A stretch of 64,000 bases of DNA. Source: Luteimonas rhizosphaerae (GTDB taxonomy: Bacteria; Pseudomonadota; Gammaproteobacteria; Xanthomonadales; Xanthomonadaceae). Shown in pieces: positions 7,843 through 15,285 of this stretch. A program made the position numbers and the translations under genes. The stretch covers positions 1 through 64,000 of the forward strand of contig NZ_NRQR01000022.1 in NCBI RefSeq assembly GCF_002849595.1, written 5' to 3'. The number at the start of each line of letters is the position of its first letter. The first letter of the stretch is position 1. The notes beneath the pieces were generated by a model. The model ran no database searches, was not told where the DNA came from, and was given only the letters and a program-made list of their open reading frames with translations.

Positions 7843-8628
7843 TCAGAAGCGCCGGCTCAGGCCCAGCACGACGCGCGCGGCGCCGTTGCGGTCCGGATCC
7901 AGCAGCGGGCTGTCGCGCAGTTCGCTCGACAGGAACTGGTACTCGACCGCGCCGAGCAGCACCCAGCGCGTCGCGCCGATCGGGCGCGACAGCGTCAGGC
8001 CGGTGCGCGGCAGCACCGTCGAGCCGGGCGCATACGCCACGACGCCGCGCGCGACTTCCTCGTCGAGCGTGCCGAAGTAGTAGCCCGCGAGATCGGCCGA
8101 CAGCCAGCTCGCACCGGCGCTAGCGGTCAGCGCCGCGCCCTGGAACTGCCAGGTGTAGCGGTAGTCGAGGGCGATCTCGTAGCCCTCGCTCGCACCCGAG
8201 ATGTCGTGCAGGCCTTCCAGCGAGACCGCGCCCCAGTCCGCGCCGAAACTCGCGCGCAGGCCGGCGTCGAGACCGTCGTCGCGATCGCGCAGCAGGTCCG
8301 CGTCCACGCCGTTGGCCAGCAGTTCGGCGCGGCCGAGGTCGTCGATGTCGAAGCCGTCGAGGCGCGCCGACAACAGCGCATCGAGCGAGAAGCCGCCCGA
8401 CTCGACCAGGTGCACGCCACCCGACGCACCCTCGAAGAACAGGCGCTCGCCTTCGTAGCGCAGCAGCGGCACGGGCCGGACGCGGGTGCCTTCGCCGGCA
8501 TACGGACTGTCGATCGCGACGGCGGCGACGCCGACGGACCAGACGTCGGACGGCGGCGCGGCCGCCTGGGCGAAGGCGAGGGCCGGGCAGGCCAGGAGGG
8601 CGAGCGTTGCGAGCGGGCGCAGGATCAT
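7843..8628 (-). CDS. MipA/OmpV family outer-membrane protein
   Basis: This 261-residue protein has a clear Sec signal (hydrophobic residues about 5-18, cleavage after ALAFAQ). It then alternates aromatic and polar residues as in outer-membrane beta-barrels. Family features are DSPYAGEGTRVRPVPLLRYE (about 40-59), the ASxGVHLV segment and the C-terminal VVLGLSRRF, which ends in Phe as expected for a Bam substrate. MipA/OmpV genes often accompany two-component systems of the QseB/PmrA kind, and one lies about 4.6 kb away here. No strong ribosome-binding site precedes the ATG. The role in this organism (scaffold, adhesin or stress barrel) is unknown. Confidence 0.85.
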   Translation of the reverse strand: MILRPLATLALLACPALAFAQAAAPPSDVWSVGVAAVAIDSPYAGEGTRVRPVPLLRYEGERLFFEGASGGVHLVESGGFSLDALLSARLDGFDIDDLGRAELLANGVDADLLRDRDDGLDAGLRASFGADWGAVSLEGLHDISGASEGYEIALDYRYTWQFQGAALTASAGASWLSADLAGYYFGTLDEEVARGVVAYAPGSTVLPRTGLTLSRPIGATRWVLLGAVEYQFLSSELRDSPLLDPDRNGAARVVLGLSRRF

Positions 8629-8701: not shown

Positions 8702-10023
8702 TCAGGGGCGCACGGCCACGTCGTGGCGCGCGGTCGGCGACGCGGCCGGGCGTTGCGTGTGCGGCGTGCGGCGGGCCTGCTCGCGGCCGAGCCACAGTCC
8801 CAGCGCGGCCCACACCAGCGCGAGCGGCAGCACCACGCCGACCAGCCCGCCCATCGCCATGCCGAGCCGGCCGAGCACGCCTTCGGCCTGGGCGCCGACG
8901 ACATCGCCGGCGCGGTACATGAAGGTGTCGACGAAGGCCTTGGCCTTGTATTTGTCTTCGCGGCTGACGACGGTGAACAGCACTTCGCGCGCGGGCCGGG
9001 TGATGCCGCGCTGCACGGCGCGGTTGGTGGCTTCCAGCAGGATCAGCACCACGAACGAGCCGTAGATCGCCAGTCCGATGAAACCGAGCGCCGTGGCCAC
9101 GGGCAGGATCGCCAGGGCGACGCCGAGGCCGAAACGCTGGATGAGCTTGCCGGTCAGCGTCAGCTGCAGCACCAGCACCGCGATCTGGGTCCACATGTCG
9201 ATGCTGCCGAGCAACGCGGCGCGCGCGTCCATGTCGTCGGCGATGCCGGCGACCATCTGCAGGCGGGTGAAATAGATCAGCGTCGCGACCACGGTCATCA
9301 GCACGATGTAGCCGGCGATGCCCGCCAGGTACGGCGAGCGGAACACCGCGCGCAGGCCGGCCCACGCGCTGCCGCCGATGCGCGCGGTCTCCGGCGGCAC
9401 GCCGGTCGCGTTGGCCGGTGCGGTGGCGCCGTTGCGATCCGGCGCCACGCGCACCAGCAGCCAGGCCATCGCCAGCGCCAGCAGCAGGAAGCCGCCCGCG
9501 ACCAGCAGCAGGCTGGGCGTGCCCAGCGGACGCGCCAGCTGCGAGGTCAGCCACGGCCCGAAGATCGCGCCGAGCGTGCCGCCGATCGAGATCAGCGCGA
9601 ACACGCGCCCGGCCTGCTCGCGGGTAAAGCGGTCGGCCAGCAGCGCCCAGAACACCATCGTCACGAACAGGTTGAAGACGCTGAACCACACGTAGAACAC
9701 CTGGCCGCTCGCCTGCCCGACCACCGGCTCAGCACGAAGAAGCCGTAGGTCGCGCCGATGAACTGCAGGCGCCGCAGGCGGCTGACCAGCCAGCCGAACA
9801 GCGGATTGACCGCGAGCGTCGCGACCGCGGTGCCGATGAACAGCCAGCGGATGCTCTCGATGCCGCGCTCCATGCCGAGCGCATCGCGCGCCGGCCGCAG
9901 CAGCATCAACGCGGTCAGCACGAAGAAGAAGAACACGGCCGCGATCAGCACCGGCCGCACTTCCTCGCGGCGGAGGTTGAGCAGGGTCTGCAGGGCACGC
10001 GGTCGACGGGGGGCTGAAGTCAT
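8702..10023 (-). pseudogene. MFS/NTP-NDP-exchanger-like transporter interrupted by a one-base frameshift
   Basis: The first 99 codons from the ATG at 10023 encode two or three membrane segments and RPARDALGMERG, then end in GATYGFFVLS. Continuing in that frame gives an Arg/Cys-rich non-protein. The next frame continues the membrane protein with PVVGQASGQVFYVWFSVFN and runs to the stop at 8702. A single extra G in the GG at 9726-9727 (plus strand) would restore one reading frame of about 440 residues with roughly 11-12 membrane segments, resembling MFS or ATP/ADP-carrier-like transporters. The rest of the frame is intact, so the lesion is recent or a sequencing error at a short G run. Neighbours on both sides are co-oriented. 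Confidence 0.8.
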
Positions 10024-10126: not shown

Positions 10127-11209
10127 TCAGGGACCGATGTCCGGGAACTGCGCGCCGGTCAGCGTTTCGCTGATTTCCCACAGGCGGGTCGACGCGTCGG
10201 CGTCCGCCGCGGCATCGGGCAGCGCGGCGAAGCCGAGCGGGCCGCGCATTTCCATGAAGCCGGTCGGGCCGTAATAGGCGCCGCCCTGCGCGTCCGGCGC
10301 GGTCGCGGCATACAGCGTCGGCAAGGCGCCACGCGACGCGTCCTGCAGGATCACGCGTCCCAGCGCGCGCCGCACCGGGCCGTTGTTCGCCTGCAGGTTG
10401 GTGCGCGACACGCCGGGGTGCGAGGCGATGCTGGTCAGACCCCAGCCGGCGGCATCGCTGTTGCGCTGCAGTTCGCGCGCGAACATCAGGCAGGCCAGCT
10501 TCGATTGCTGGTAGGCGTCGCCGGGATCGTAGGCGCGCGCGAATTGCAGATCGTCGAAGTGCAGCGCGCCGAGCCGGGCGGCGATGCTGGACTGGGTGAC
10601 CACGCGCGGCGCGTCCGATTGCTGCAGCAGCGGCAGCAGAGCTTCGGTCAGCGCGAAATGTCCGAGGTAGTTGACCGCGAACTGCATCTCGAACCCGTCC
10701 GGCGACACGCCGCGCTGCGGCGGTTCCATGATGCCGGCGTTGTTGATCAGCGTATCGAGTCGCGGCAGCGTCGCATTGAGGCGATCGCCCAGTGCGCGCA
10801 CCGACGCGAGCTCGGCGAGATCCAGCGGTTCGAACCGCACGTCGGCGCCCGGCGTCGCCTCGCGGATGCTCGCGATCGCCTCGGCGCCGCGCTTGGCGTC
10901 GCGCGACGCGATGATGACCTGCGCGCCCGACGCCGCCAGCGCCTTCGCGCTCTCGTAGCCGATGCCGCTGCTGCCGCCGGTGACGAGCACCACGCGGCCG
11001 CTCTGCGACGGCATGTCGCCGAGGCTCCAGTCCGGATCGGGCTGTCCCGCCGTCGCCGGATTGCCGATCGCGCAGGCCGACAGCACCAGCAGCGAAGCGG
11101 CGGCGGTGCAGGCCTTCCAGATCGCGTGCAGCGGCCGGCGTGCCGGGGCGGCCTCCACGAGGCTGCCGCGTTCGCGTCGGGGAGAGAGAAGTGTCGTCGC
11201 GTTATCCAT
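10127..11209 (-). CDS. SDR family oxidoreductase with N-terminal lipobox-like segment (paralogue 2 of 3)
   Basis: The 360-residue protein has a complete classical SDR core: TGGSSGIG at 77-84, NNAG at 156-159, serines 207-208 and Y233/K237. Before the core lies an Arg-containing start (SPRRERG), a hydrophobic stretch and LVLSAC (Cys46), which fits a lipoprotein signal. The n-region is unusually long (about 35 residues), so membrane anchoring is an inference. A conserved box lies 85 bp upstream of the ATG. AGGG about 10 bases before the ATG supports this start. The gene heads a run of nine same-strand genes with gaps no longer than about 105 bp, and may be the first gene of that operon. Confidence 0.82.
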   Translation of the reverse strand: MDNATTLLSPRRERGSLVEAAPARRPLHAIWKACTAAASLLVLSACAIGNPATAGQPDPDWSLGDMPSQSGRVVLVTGGSSGIGYESAKALAASGAQVIIASRDAKRGAEAIASIREATPGADVRFEPLDLAELASVRALGDRLNATLPRLDTLINNAGIMEPPQRGVSPDGFEMQFAVNYLGHFALTEALLPLLQQSDAPRVVTQSSIAARLGALHFDDLQFARAYDPGDAYQQSKLACLMFARELQRNSDAAGWGLTSIASHPGVSRTNLQANNGPVRRALGRVILQDASRGALPTLYAATAPDAQGGAYYGPTGFMEMRGPLGFAALPDAAADADASTRLWEISETLTGAQFPDIGP

Positions 11210-11293: not shown

Positions 11294-11311
11294 GATTAAT
11301 CGATGTTTAAG
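11294..11311 (-). promoter_or_regulatory. TTAA-N5-TTAA box before SDR paralogue 2
   Basis: The plus-strand sequence GATTAATCGATGTTTAAG contains two TTAA half-sites whose centres are 11 bp apart (ATTAAT, five bases, TTTAAG). The spacing is the one used by OmpR-family response regulators, and the half-sites resemble the PmrA/BasR box (YTTAAK-N5-YTTAAK). A near-identical box (17 of 18 bases) precedes SDR paralogue 3, at a similar distance from its start. On the coding strand a run of nine A residues (complement of T 11322-11330) lies just upstream and could act as an UP-like element. Binding by the nearby response regulator is inferred. Confidence 0.6.
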
Positions 11312-11733
11312 GCGATGCCTATTTTTTTTTCTGATGTGATTCGCGCGGCGTCATCGCACGAGGCGATGCATGCCGGTGTCGGGCGACGGGGAAAGCACTG
11401 CGTCATCGCAACGCGTCCTGCATCGCGCGCGACGTCGCCCATCAGAAAGTCGGCTTCATCAGAGGCATCACCAGCGCGGTGCCACACAGAGTCAGAGGAT
11501 TCTTGAACGACGCGCAATGCCAATGCGTCGCGCGTGGATCGCAGCTCGCCGCGCGGCGGGTACGCAGGACAGCAAGACGCAATGCAAGCTGCGCCAGGTC
11601 TGCAGTGGATGCGATCCGCAGAGCTGGCGTCAGCGCGGTGCGCGCAGAAACGAGCCCGGACGCAGGCGTGCCCGCGAGGCGAGCTGCATGGCGAAGACGC
11701 CGGCAGCAGCGCTGCCGGCGCAGCGGGTCGCGG
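11312..11733. other. Intergenic region without a supported gene
   Basis: This stretch lies between the promoter of SDR paralogue 2 and the stop of SDR paralogue 3. It holds the T9 run at 11322-11330 and otherwise only short open frames with shadow composition (very Arg-, Ser- and Cys-rich). I see no ribosome-binding site, hairpin with T-run or repeat here. It may contain the 3' untranslated region of paralogue 3. Confidence 0.5.
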
Positions 11734-12828
11734 TCAGCGCGCCGCGGTCGCGAACCGGACCCGGGCGAGCGACTCGCTGATCGTCCACAGATGGGCCGCG
11801 TCGTCGGTATCGCGTGCGGCGTCCGGCACTTTGGCGATGCCCACGGCGCCACGCGTCTCCATCAGACGGGTCGGTCCGTAGTACGCGCCGCCCTGGGCCG
11901 CCTCTGCGGTGGCGGCGTACAGCGGCGACAACGCGCCCTGCATCGCCGGCTGGAACAGGAACGCGAACTGGCGGCGCGCGAAGCCGTTTGCCCCTCCGTG
12001 ATGGACCAGCAGATCGGTGCGCGACACGCCCGGATGCGACGCCATGCTTTGAATGCCCCAGCCCGCGGCATCGCTGCGACGCTGCAGTTCGAAGGCGAAC
12101 ATCAGGCACGCCAGCTTGGACTGGCTGTAGGCCTTGCGGGCGTCGTAACGCGTCTTGAACTGCAGATCGTCGAAGTGCAGCGACCCGCCGCGTGCGGCGA
12201 TGCTCGACAGGGTGACGACACGCGGCGCATCGGCCTGACGCAGCAACGGCAGCAACGCCGACGTCAGGGCGAAATGCCCCAGATAGTTGACTGCGAACTG
12301 GATCTCGAAGCCATCGGCCGAGACGCCGCGCGTCGGCGGCTCCATCAGGCCGGCATTGTTGATCAACACGTCGAGACGCGGCAGCGTGCGCTGGATGCGT
12401 TGACCGAATGCACGCACCGATGCGAGGTCTGCGAGGTCGAGGGCTTCGAACCGCACGTCCGCGGTCGGCGTGACCTGTCGGATCTCCGCGATCGCCGCCG
12501 CGCCGCGTTTCGGATCGCGTGCTGCGATGACGACCTGGGCACCGGCAGCCGCCAGCGCCTTGGCGCTTTCGTAACCGATGCCACTGGTGCCGCCGGTGAC
12601 CAGCACGATGCGACCCCGCTGCGATGGCATGTCGGCAAGCGTCCAGTCGCGTTTGGGCTGCACTTGCGAAGGTGAAGCATTGGTGGCGCTCGTCGACATC
12701 ACGAATAGGGACGCGACACCAAGGGCGGCCTTCCACGCCTTGTCCATCGACCCTGGCCCTGGACCGGTCGAGACGGCGACCCGCGTGGTGCGTTGACGCC
12801 GGGGAATTGCAATTGTCGAGGTCTGCAT
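11734..12828 (-). CDS. SDR family oxidoreductase with N-terminal hydrophobic segment (paralogue 3 of 3)
   Basis: The 364-residue product is the closest relative of paralogue 2. It has the same order of motifs: TGGTSGIG at 78-85, NNAG, a TLSSIA serine motif and YSQSK as the catalytic YxxxK. The N-terminus contains PRRQR followed by a hydrophobic segment ending SATNA, so it is probably exported or anchored. An internal ATG at codon 28, directly before the hydrophobic segment, would give a more normal signal peptide and is a serious alternative start. The gene stands alone, with a TTAA-N5-TTAA box 75 bp upstream of the chosen ATG. The substrate is unknown. Confidence 0.82.
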   Translation of the reverse strand: MQTSTIAIPRRQRTTRVAVSTGPGPGSMDKAWKAALGVASLFVMSTSATNASPSQVQPKRDWTLADMPSQRGRIVLVTGGTSGIGYESAKALAAAGAQVVIAARDPKRGAAAIAEIRQVTPTADVRFEALDLADLASVRAFGQRIQRTLPRLDVLINNAGLMEPPTRGVSADGFEIQFAVNYLGHFALTSALLPLLRQADAPRVVTLSSIAARGGSLHFDDLQFKTRYDARKAYSQSKLACLMFAFELQRRSDAAGWGIQSMASHPGVSRTDLLVHHGGANGFARRQFAFLFQPAMQGALSPLYAATAEAAQGGAYYGPTRLMETRGAVGIAKVPDAARDTDDAAHLWTISESLARVRFATAAR

Positions 12829-12902
12829 GGTCGCTGCCTTGGAGAGTGTGGCGCCGCGAAGCACGACGCCGTTGGGGGAGTGTTGCCAACTTGCGGCCGC
12901 GT

Positions 12903-12920
12903 GATTAATCGATCTTTAAG
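12903..12920 (-). promoter_or_regulatory. TTAA-N5-TTAA box before SDR paralogue 3
   Basis: The sequence GATTAATCGATCTTTAAG differs from the box before SDR paralogue 2 in one base of 18 and keeps both half-sites and their spacing. It lies 75 bp from the chosen ATG. The matching position in front of two paralogous genes, with unrelated sequence around it, suggests an operator rather than chance. The remaining roughly 300 bp up to the response-regulator gene show no coding sequence. Confidence 0.6.
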
Positions 12921-13169
12921 CCATGGCGGTCGCGGCACCCACCCTGCGTGCGGTCACACACGCCGGATGCGGATCCCCGCGCCATGTCTGCTTGGTCCGC
13001 TCGCGTCAGGCGTCCGCCGCGGTAGCGCGGTGCCTTGTCGACGGGGCGACGCGAACGCGCACAGGGCACCCGGCTTGGCGCAGTCGGTCCGCGAGCCGAT
13101 GTGCCACCGGCGGCGTCGCATTTCCGTCGCCTGGCTTGGGCGCGGGACCCGGTCGACATGCTTGTACGG

Positions 13170-13186
13170 TTTAATCCGTTATTAAT
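13170..13186 (+). promoter_or_regulatory. TTAA-N5-TTAA box before the response-regulator gene
   Basis: TTTAAT, five bases, ATTAAT lies 43 bp before the response-regulator ATG. The half-sites and the 11-bp repeat are the same as in the two SDR boxes, although the spacer differs. This suggests that the response regulator binds its own promoter and the two SDR promoters. A clear -10 element could not be assigned. Confidence 0.55.
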
Positions 13187-13228: not shown

Positions 13229-13894
13229 ATGGATTCCATCCTGCTCGTCGAAGACGACCACATGCTCGGCCAGGCGCTCACGTCGGCGCTCGGCCAGGAA
13301 GGCTGGCGCGTGGTGCACTGCAAGGACGTGGCGACGGCGCGTGCGGCGCTGGTCGATCACGGCTTCTCCGCGGTGCTGCTCGACCTCGGCCTGCCACAGG
13401 GCTCGGGCCTCGACGTGCTGGAGACGATGCGCGGCCGCTACGACGCGACACCGGTCGTCATCATCACCGCGCGCGACCAGCTGAGCGACCGCGTGCGCGG
13501 CCTCGATGCCGGCGCCGACGACTACATCGTCAAGCCGTTCCAGCGCGACGAGATGCTGGCGCGGCTGCGCGCGGTGCTGCGCCGCAGCCGCGGCGGCGTG
13601 ACGCCGCTGCTGCGCTGGCGCGATGTCGAGATCGATCCGGGCGCGGGCTCCGTGACCCGCGGCGGCACGCGCGTCGGCCTCAGCGGCAGCGCGTTCCGCA
13701 TCCTGGTGGCGCTGTTCGAGGCGCGCGGCCGCGTGCTCAGCCGCGACCAGCTGCAGGACCGCCTGTACGGCGACGACGGCGAGATCGGCAGCAACACCGT
13801 CGCCGTCTATGTGCACCAGCTGCGGCGCAAGCTCGGCGACGGCATCGTGCTGACCGAGCACGGTTTCGGCTACCGCGCCGGGGACGAAACCTGA
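13229..13894 (+). CDS. OmpR/PhoB-family response regulator (QseB/PmrA-like)
   Basis: The 221-residue product has a receiver domain with the acidic pocket E8/D9/D10, phospho-acceptor D52, T80 and K102 (VKPF). A winged-helix DNA-binding domain follows, ending in VYVHQLRRKL and HGFGYRAG. Length and motif order match the QseB/PmrA/TctD group. It would be phosphorylated by the histidine kinase encoded immediately downstream, whose ATG overlaps its stop (TGATG). The start has no good ribosome-binding site but is where family proteins begin. A TTAA-N5-TTAA box upstream suggests autoregulation. Confidence 0.92.
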   Translation: MDSILLVEDDHMLGQALTSALGQEGWRVVHCKDVATARAALVDHGFSAVLLDLGLPQGSGLDVLETMRGRYDATPVVIITARDQLSDRVRGLDAGADDYIVKPFQRDEMLARLRAVLRRSRGGVTPLLRWRDVEIDPGAGSVTRGGTRVGLSGSAFRILVALFEARGRVLSRDQLQDRLYGDDGEIGSNTVAVYVHQLRRKLGDGIVLTEHGFGYRAGDET

Positions 13895-15285
13895 TGGGCG
13901 CGTTACGCACCCGCCTGCTGGCCGCGCTGGCCGCCGTGCTGCTGGCCACCTGGGCCATCAGCTTTGCCGTCGTCTATCTCGACGTCCTGCAGCGCCAGGG
14001 CGGCGAAGTGGACAACATGCTGCGCAGCGTCGCCGAGACGATGCTGCAGTCGCTGCCGGCCGACATCGCGACCGCGGGACGCCAGCAGCAGTTCGTGCTC
14101 GGCAGCGAAACCGCACCGTCGGAAGGCAAGTTCGCCGCGCTCGGTTTCCAGGTCTGGGAACGCGGGGCAAAACGACGCCTGATGGCGTCGCGGCCGGCGC
14201 CCGCGCATGCGATGGCGCCCGCGTTCGCGGACGGATTCTCCGATGTCATGGTCGACGGCGAGCCCTGGCGCGTGTTCGCGCTCAGCGACGCCGACTCGCG
14301 CGTGCAGGTGCAGGTCGGCCTGCCGCAATCGGCGATGCGCACGGAAATGCTGCGCTGGCTGGGCGGTCCCACCCTGCTCGCCGCGCTGTCGTTGATGGTC
14401 GGCATCGGCGTGGCGATCTGGCTGGTCATCCACTGGTCGCTGCGGCCGGTGGTACGGCTGAGCGAATCGCTGACCGCGCGCACGCCGCTGGATCTCGCGC
14501 CGCTGCCCGAGCGCGGACTTCCGTCCGAGGTCACGCCGCTGGTCACGTCGTTCAACCGCGTGCTCGCGCGGCTGGACTCGGCGCTGCAGCACGAACGCGA
14601 GTTCCTCGGCGAAGCGGCGCACGAACTGCGCACGCCGCTGGCCGCGCTGCTCGCCCAGGCCCAGGTGCTGCAGCACGCCGGTGATGGCGAAGAAGCGCGC
14701 GAAGCGCTCGACCGCCTGGTCGCAGGCATCGAACGCACCTCGCGCCTGGCCCAGCAGCTGCTCGACGCAGCGCGCGTGGACGCCGGCGGCAGCGCCGCGC
14801 GTGCGACGGATGTCGACCTGGCGATGGTCGCCGGCATGGTCGCCGACGAGTTCGAGCTGGTCGCGCTGCGCGGCGGCCAGTCGATCGAACTCGAAGGCGG
14901 GCCCGCGCCGGTGCACGGCGACATCGACGACCTCGGCATCCTCGTGCGCAACCTGATCGACAACGCGCTGCGCCACGGCGGCGCGGGCACGCGCGTGCGG
15001 GTGCGCACCGGCGTCGAAGGCGTCGGTCCCGACCGGGTGACCACGTTGCGCGTCGAAGACGATGGCGCCGGCATCCCCGAAGCCGAGCAGGCGCACGTGT
15101 TCGAGCGCTTCTACCGCGCCGGCGACGGGCATCGCGCCCAGGGCATCGGCATGGGCCTGTCGCTGGTCGAACGCGTCGTCGCCTCGCATGGCGGCCAGCT
15201 GCGCTGCGGCGTGGGTCTCGACGCCCGCGGCTTCGGCGTCGAGATCCGTTTGCCGGTCCACCGCCGCCGGGCGGCCGACACCTAG
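13894..15285 (+). CDS. Sensor histidine kinase (QseC/PmrB-like)
   Basis: The 463-residue protein has a first membrane segment at about residues 8-29, a periplasmic sensor region to about 155, a second membrane segment at about 157-182, then a HAMP linker. The HisKA motif is AAHELRTPLA with phosphorylated H243. The ATPase domain shows the N-box around N353/N357, DDGAGIP (about 387-393), FERFYRA and the GIGMGLSL lid. It phosphorylates the response regulator encoded one base upstream. The sensed signal is not evident. In related systems it can be metal, low pH or membrane damage, but nothing here shows which. Confidence 0.92.
   Translation: MGALRTRLLAALAAVLLATWAISFAVVYLDVLQRQGGEVDNMLRSVAETMLQSLPADIATAGRQQQFVLGSETAPSEGKFAALGFQVWERGAKRRLMASRPAPAHAMAPAFADGFSDVMVDGEPWRVFALSDADSRVQVQVGLPQSAMRTEMLRWLGGPTLLAALSLMVGIGVAIWLVIHWSLRPVVRLSESLTARTPLDLAPLPERGLPSEVTPLVTSFNRVLARLDSALQHEREFLGEAAHELRTPLAALLAQAQVLQHAGDGEEAREALDRLVAGIERTSRLAQQLLDAARVDAGGSAARATDVDLAMVAGMVADEFELVALRGGQSIELEGGPAPVHGDIDDLGILVRNLIDNALRHGGAGTRVRVRTGVEGVGPDRVTTLRVEDDGAGIPEAEQAHVFERFYRAGDGHRAQGIGMGLSLVERVVASHGGQLRCGVGLDARGFGVEIRLPVHRRRAADT

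Follow-up and report, generated by a model that had tools for sequence, protein, structure and literature searches.

Genes and boxes at the locus

The window, i.e., the whole stretch of 64,000 nucleotides that was analysed, has a G+C content of 70%. It carries the gene of a response regulator (13229 to 13894, plus strand), directly followed by that of a probable cognate sensor histidine kinase (13894 to 15285, plus strand). The regulator is of the OmpR/PhoB family and PmrA/QseB-like. It has the architecture of this family, a receiver domain (Pfam Response_reg, 1.2e-25) followed by a C-terminal winged helix (Trans_reg_C, 8.3e-19). The kinase is QseC-like and matches Pfam HisKA and HATPase_c; with the NCBIfam QseC model it reaches 192 bits, which is below the cut-off of 475.

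Two paralogous genes for short-chain dehydrogenases (SDRs) are located on the minus strand. SDR1 (10127 to 11209) matches Pfam adh_short (4.2e-31), scores above the cut-off of NCBIfam PRK06197.1, and has a lipoprotein-like N-terminus (LSAC). SDR2 (11734 to 12828) matches adh_short (1.1e-32), scores above the cut-off of PRK05854.1, and has an N-terminal hydrophobic segment. The two proteins (360 and 364 amino acids) share 231 identities. The start codon of SDR2, ATG 12828, is favoured by a similar SDR N-terminus in the closest relative, L115.

On the same strand, SDR1 is followed by the gene of an MFS-type transporter (8702 to 10023) and by that of a MipA/OmpV-family outer-membrane protein (7843 to 8628), assigned by Pfam MipA (3.3e-40). 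The order is thus box 1, SDR1, MFS, MipA/OmpV, and a further box precedes SDR2. As judged by this order, the MipA/OmpV gene probably belongs to the SDR1 operon. The MFS reading frame is interrupted: two pieces in different frames meet near 9727-9733, where about 10 residues have no match, and Pfam MFS_1 is found on the 3' piece. In several relatives, the gene is in one frame; the interruption is either a natural loss or an assembly error.

The three boxes each contain two TTAA cores. Read directly, box 1 is ATTAATCGATGTTTAAG (11295 to 11311), box 2 is ATTAATCGATCTTTAAG (12904 to 12920), and box 3 is TTTAATCCGTTATTAAT (13170 to 13186). Box 1 belongs to the minus strand (gene-oriented CTTAAACATCGATTAAT) and lies 85 bp before the SDR1 start, ATG 11209. 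Box 2, also on the minus strand (gene-oriented CTTAAAGATCGATTAAT), lies 75 bp before ATG 12828, and box 3, on the plus strand, lies 42 bp before the response-regulator start, ATG 13229. A sequence-only reading had described two near-identical SDR boxes and a third one before the regulator gene. All three are present where it had placed them, and its distances to the genes hold with these start codons. It had named the motif TTAA-N5-TTAA. This is correct for the hexamers around the cores; between the four-base cores themselves there are 7 bp in all three boxes (TTAA-N7-TTAA, a period of 11 bp), and an exact TTAA-N5-TTAA does not occur in the whole window.

Boxes 1 and 2 agree in 17 of 18 bases, the preceding G included, while the 160-bp upstream regions of SDR1 and SDR2 agree in 73 of 143 aligned bases. 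As SDR1 and SDR2 are paralogues, their boxes go back to a duplication and are not fully independent of each other.

The box in related genomes

We searched 101 genomes for the regulator and considered matches of at least 54% identity as orthologues (12 besides the window). Nine other genomes of the genus have orthologues of 69-98% identity, and one of 65% was found in another family. Relatives of 61-65% identity occur in Achromobacter and in an uncultured Xanthomonadaceae assembly; the loci used from that search (L035-L037) are the best 3 of 80. Loci with regulators of at most 47% identity (L018-L034) were left out as non-orthologues. The fetched stretches of 6 of these 17 loci contain an N7 box.

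In the window and in 13 loci (L115-L124, L035-L037), the box precedes the regulator gene at 42-50 bp from its start; for L124, L035, and L036, this distance depends on uncertain start codons (TTG or GTG). A test set of 25 new orthologous loci of the order (L135-L159) was then drawn with the motif already fixed: 56 matches were listed and loci taken for 30, of which 25 were new. In 24 of these 25 loci, several of which share a genus and are not independent cases, the N7 box stands before the regulator gene. The other one, L155, has a one-mismatch form only. The box is absent in L125 and L126, whose regulators are 54-56% identical to that of the window.

In sum, 38 of the 41 orthologous loci examined have an operator-like box in front of the regulator operon, conserved together with the gene. 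In L159, it lies 78 bp before the start, and in the other 37 loci 41-57 bp (the start codons of the test set were deduced from the alignment). The first TTAA is followed by A in 17 boxes, G in 16, and T in 5, and the final base is T in 23, A in 13, and C in 2. In L116-L120, all 16 TTAA columns are invariant, compared with 82 of 131 non-box columns. A lack of conservation in relatives, which the sequence-only reading had named as evidence against itself, was not seen at the orthologous loci.

The divergent neighbour of the regulator differs among the loci. It can be an MFS, SDR, or GNAT-like gene or another one, including some that presumably correspond to pcnB or a pseudouridine synthase. The regulator box is constant. 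Hence, the box goes with the regulator gene and not with the changing neighbours, as autoregulation would predict, and the suggestion that the two-component system regulates itself gains from this comparison. Autoregulation by the PmrA/QseB-like response regulator via the predicted operator is well supported.

A second box is present in all eight relatives with an SDR or MFS gene as divergent neighbour (L116-L120, L135-L137). In L116 and L118, the SDR gene comes first after the box, as in the window. In the sister species L117, L119, and L120, the box is located 162-163 bp before the MFS start without an intervening SDR gene, and MipA-, hydrolase-, and SDR-like genes lie downstream of MFS (Pfam checked for L117). 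The divergent gene is MipA/OmpV in L121, L122, and the Achromobacter locus L035. The second box thus marks the MFS and MipA/OmpV operon, in which an SDR gene is first only in some species. The sequence-only reading had taken the adjacent redox genes for the direct targets. This is too narrow, as shown by the MFS genes of L117, L119, and L120, the MipA/OmpV genes of L121, L122, and L035, and the MFS and MipA genes that follow SDR1 in the window.

In L115, the box also precedes the SDR gene. The SDR box is separated there from the regulator gene by a block of several genes (L115 3533-9212), some of which we take to be DoxX and xanthine dehydrogenase genes; both boxes are kept, 6.4 kb apart. Boxes before a GNAT-like gene are found in L121, L122, L123, and L037. 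Pfam scores for this gene are below the cut-off, and the L123 copy has no Pfam match. In L121 and L123, its box has a further gene on the opposite side as well and was assigned by orientation.

The genome G032 has its MFS-MipA-SDR operon on contig C11 and the regulator on C30. The box before the MFS gene, CTTAAACCCGAATTAAT, is common to G032, L117, L119, and L120. Proximity cannot explain a box at this place. Hence, although from one genome, it is the strongest argument that the MFS-MipA-SDR operon is regulated in trans. MipA homologues were found in 27 of 52 genomes of the genus (E 1e-5) and MFS homologues in 52 of 52 (E 1e-30, paralogues included), so neither gene depends on the regulator. 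The genome that carries the locus also encodes another OmpR-type regulator (G000:C9:38886-40292, 41% identical), which adjoins another MipA/OmpV gene; the pairing thus recurs.

The most unusual element of the locus is the hydrophobic leader of the SDRs. SDR1 and SDR2 have N-terminal extensions of 76-77 residues with a hydrophobic segment, and LSAC in SDR1 is lipobox-like. Among 12 cluster SDRs compared, 11 have an extension of 68-82 residues with a hydrophobic segment before TGxxxGxG, with YxxxK kept. In first-gene SDRs, this segment is followed by a Cys, which is part of LSAC in the window, L136, and L137 and of ATAC or AAC forms in L118 and L116. In the last cluster SDR of L116, L117, L118, and L120, the fold begins at the start and the leader is absent. 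The leaders of SDR1 and SDR2 suggest export. To our knowledge, export and work outside the cytoplasm are unusual for SDRs.

Known regulators and the proposed mechanism

The best NCBIfam models for the regulator are PmrA (180.4 bits) and QseB (174.5 bits). With cut-offs of 330 and 345, respectively, it was accepted neither as a PmrA/BasR equivalog nor as QseB. CtrA was likewise rejected (NF045991, 126.7 bits with a cut-off of 350). CtrA of alphaproteobacteria has an operator written TTAA-N7-TTAA and is thus alike in spacing; it differs in protein score, class, and role.

The closest solved structures are those of BasR/PmrA. PmrA is reported to contact bases through Asn188, Asn196, and Arg210 (PMC4660055). 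Asn188 is kept in the regulator (Asn189), whereas Asn196 is replaced by Gln197 and Arg210 by His211, i.e., two of the three residues differ. The recognition helix is nearly constant across the regulator orthologues in an alignment without the rows L018, L022, and L024, which were on the wrong strand.

PmrA binds tandem half-sites head to tail with 5 bp between the hexamers (PMC3973317, PMC4660055). Its consensus is (C/T)TTAA(G/T)-N5-(C/T)TTAA(G/T) (PMC10729948), and verified boxes of Salmonella consist of CTTAAG and XTTAAT with 5 bp between them (PMC3973317). In gene orientation, the SDR boxes read CTTAAA-N5-ATTAAT, with two flank misses each against YTTAAK, and the regulator box reads TTTAAT-N5-ATTAAT, with one. 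None of the three boxes matches YTTAAK-N5-YTTAAK in full; all three match its TTAA cores and spacing. The SDR boxes fit the Salmonella form with one change. The likeness to the PmrA box that had been proposed from the sequence therefore applies to the core and the 11-bp period and fails at the flanks. The QseB consensus, G(C/T)(G/A)ACAAT(A/T)A-N4-TT (PMC10729948), is matched by none of the three boxes, as judged by eye.

Taken together, the system shares with PmrA/BasR of enterobacteria an OmpR/PhoB-type regulator and tandem TTAA half-sites with N5 between the hexamers. It differs in the flanks (YTTAAK versus CTTAAA/ATTAAT in the SDR boxes). Known targets of PmrA are genes for lipid A modification, whereas the candidate targets linked to the box here are SDR, MFS, and MipA genes. 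We suggest that the system works like PmrA, yet it is not classed as PmrA proper.

A second comparison is with BqsR of Pseudomonas aeruginosa, which was likened here by operator and not by protein alignment; among the structure matches listed, there is only a CarR receiver domain. Its operator, TTAAG-N6-TTAAG (PMC4682146), has the same 11-bp period, with a fixed G after TTAA; in the boxes described here, A, G, or T follows the first TTAA.

We consider it highly probable, from box placement and conservation, that the boxes are operators bound by the adjacent OmpR/PhoB-family regulator and under its control. We infer the following course of events. The sensor kinase (13894-15285) would be stimulated, probably by a disturbance of the envelope. 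The phosphorylated regulator would dimerise and bind the two tandem TTAA half-sites, 11 bp apart. Box 3, located 42 bp upstream of the regulator gene, would serve to control the regulator's own operon, box 1 the SDR1-MFS-MipA cluster, and box 2 SDR2 as a separate gene.

An envelope signal for the kinase is plausible because MipA/OmpV genes are part of polymyxin- or envelope-responsive regulons elsewhere, in Pseudomonas (PMC10936184) and Burkholderia (PMC9426598). The two-component systems concerned, both envelope-responsive, are ParRS with mipBA in Pseudomonas aeruginosa (PMC10936184) and BesRS in Burkholderia thailandensis (PMC9426598). Both regulators were likened by regulon and not by protein alignment. 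The proposed repeat of BesR is TGCG/TGCA, in contrast to TTAA here, and the term "short-chain" does not occur in the main text of that paper (PMC9426598).

Activation appears more likely than repression since the gene-proximal half-site could stand where a -35 element would. BqsR is comparable in the arrangement of its operator near the promoter, where one operator pentamer serves both BqsR and RNA polymerase (PMC4682146). In a rival explanation, which shares the binding step and differs in sign, the regulator represses, with the box covering the promoter until the signal arrives. Box 3 is merely 42 bp from the start codon, and no clear -10 element is visible by eye downstream of the boxes, so that an overlap with the core promoter is possible. 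PmrA, on the other hand, is known as an activator. BqsR, with its similar operator, also activates (PMC4682146), and we regard repression as unlikely.

Neither a TTAA half-site operator with an 11-bp period nor autoregulation in an OmpR-family system is new. A regulon of SDR, MFS, and MipA/OmpV genes was not found among the matches listed when open-access literature was searched for the motif, the regulator, and the regulon. A Burkholderia biofilm operon considered as a match is a different operon (PMC5192318). For an uncharacterised regulator subfamily, which is spread over two families of one order and Achromobacter, the box provides a sharp and cheaply testable candidate operator. It would link one regulator to MipA/OmpV proteins, an MFS transporter, and SDRs of unassigned function, and thereby offers a way to both the signal and the function of the SDRs.

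More tentatively, the locus may encode an undescribed envelope-repair circuit, i.e., two-component control of exported (lipoprotein or periplasmic) SDRs together with a MipA/OmpV barrel that possibly feeds the signal back to the kinase. The leaders of 11 of the 12 SDRs compared speak for it. The leaderless last SDR of L116, L117, L118, and L120 counts against this doubtful reading. If it were true, the SDRs would be extracytoplasmic enzymes that presumably keep their cofactor bound.

Rarity of the box and sites elsewhere

TTAA-N7-TTAA occurs three times in the window and never in 100 dinucleotide shuffles of it. The whole genome (3,643,456 bases, 3.64 Mb) contains eight such sites, of which three lie within 1.9 kb here. 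Frequent occurrence in the genome, which would have spoken against the sequence-only reading, was thus not observed. When spacings of 0-25 were scanned in the window, N7 gave three matches, N18 one, and all others none. In 15 related loci (L115-L126, L035-L037), the same scan gave 24 matches for N7 and none for any other spacing. Spacings of 0-20 other than N7 yielded two matches altogether in the 25 test loci.

Over 13 whole genomes, there are 93 N7 sites (5-12 in each genome), 10 N6 sites, and 29 N8 sites; the backward-read control patterns gave 23, 26, and 56. The excess of N7 is genome-wide, which weakens the assignment of every N7 site to the locus regulator. A stricter consensus, YTTAAWN5WTTAAT, has 22 sites in the 52 genomes of the genus: 16 at the regulator locus, three elsewhere in orthologue-bearing genomes, and three in genomes without an orthologue. 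By genome, it is present in 9 of 10 with an orthologue (at least 69% identity) versus 3 of 42 without (Fisher p 5.6e-7). Since these loci also supplied the consensus, independent evidence comes only from the lack of matches in other places. The genome missed, G021, has one box that begins with G (gene-neighbour reading) and two that end in C (gene-oriented).

A large regulon in the window genome was considered and rejected: there are five N7 sites outside the locus, and one of them, before a TonB-receptor-like gene, is not tied to the regulator. This site, TTAACGACACTTTAA (gene-oriented CTTAACGACACTTTAAT; L130 3407-3423, G000:C30:206407), lies about 113 bp before the gene, which we take to be TonB-receptor-like from its resemblance. 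Of the 52 genomes of the genus, 28 have it: 9 of the 10 that carry the regulator and 19 of the 42 that lack it (p 0.014). As it is common in genomes without the regulator, it is perhaps a putative operator of another regulator.

These counts bear on a further rival, in which the boxes are read by another OmpR-family regulator encoded elsewhere in the genome and the local two-component genes are one target among others. It would account for the genome-wide excess of N7 over N6 and N8 sites and for a conserved N7 site in genomes without the locus regulator, and candidates exist, as G000 has at least 29 response-regulator matches (29 of 56 candidates scored). Against it, YTTAAWN5WTTAAT tracks the locus regulator (9/10 versus 3/42 genomes), and the box stays beside the regulator gene in 38/41 loci while the neighbours change. 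We therefore consider another reader of the boxes quite improbable and retain the adjacent regulator as the preferred one.

That the boxes are ordinary A+T-rich promoter elements (-10, UP) without a dedicated regulator is very improbable. At 70% G+C, A+T-rich sequence upstream of a gene is always conspicuous, and TTTAAT looks like a -10 hexamer. However, plain A+T richness does not predict that the 7-bp spacing stands nearly alone near these genes and was rejected on this ground as the origin of the boxes; moreover, there are only 5-12 such sites per genome in the 13 genomes.

Two further genes, presumably for a TesA-like esterase and an ABC-transporter ATPase, have an N7 site at or between their starts (L131 near 3113, L133 near 3371, L134 near 3852). 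This site recurs in G000, G032, and G041, and G021 has the same 15-mer as G000.
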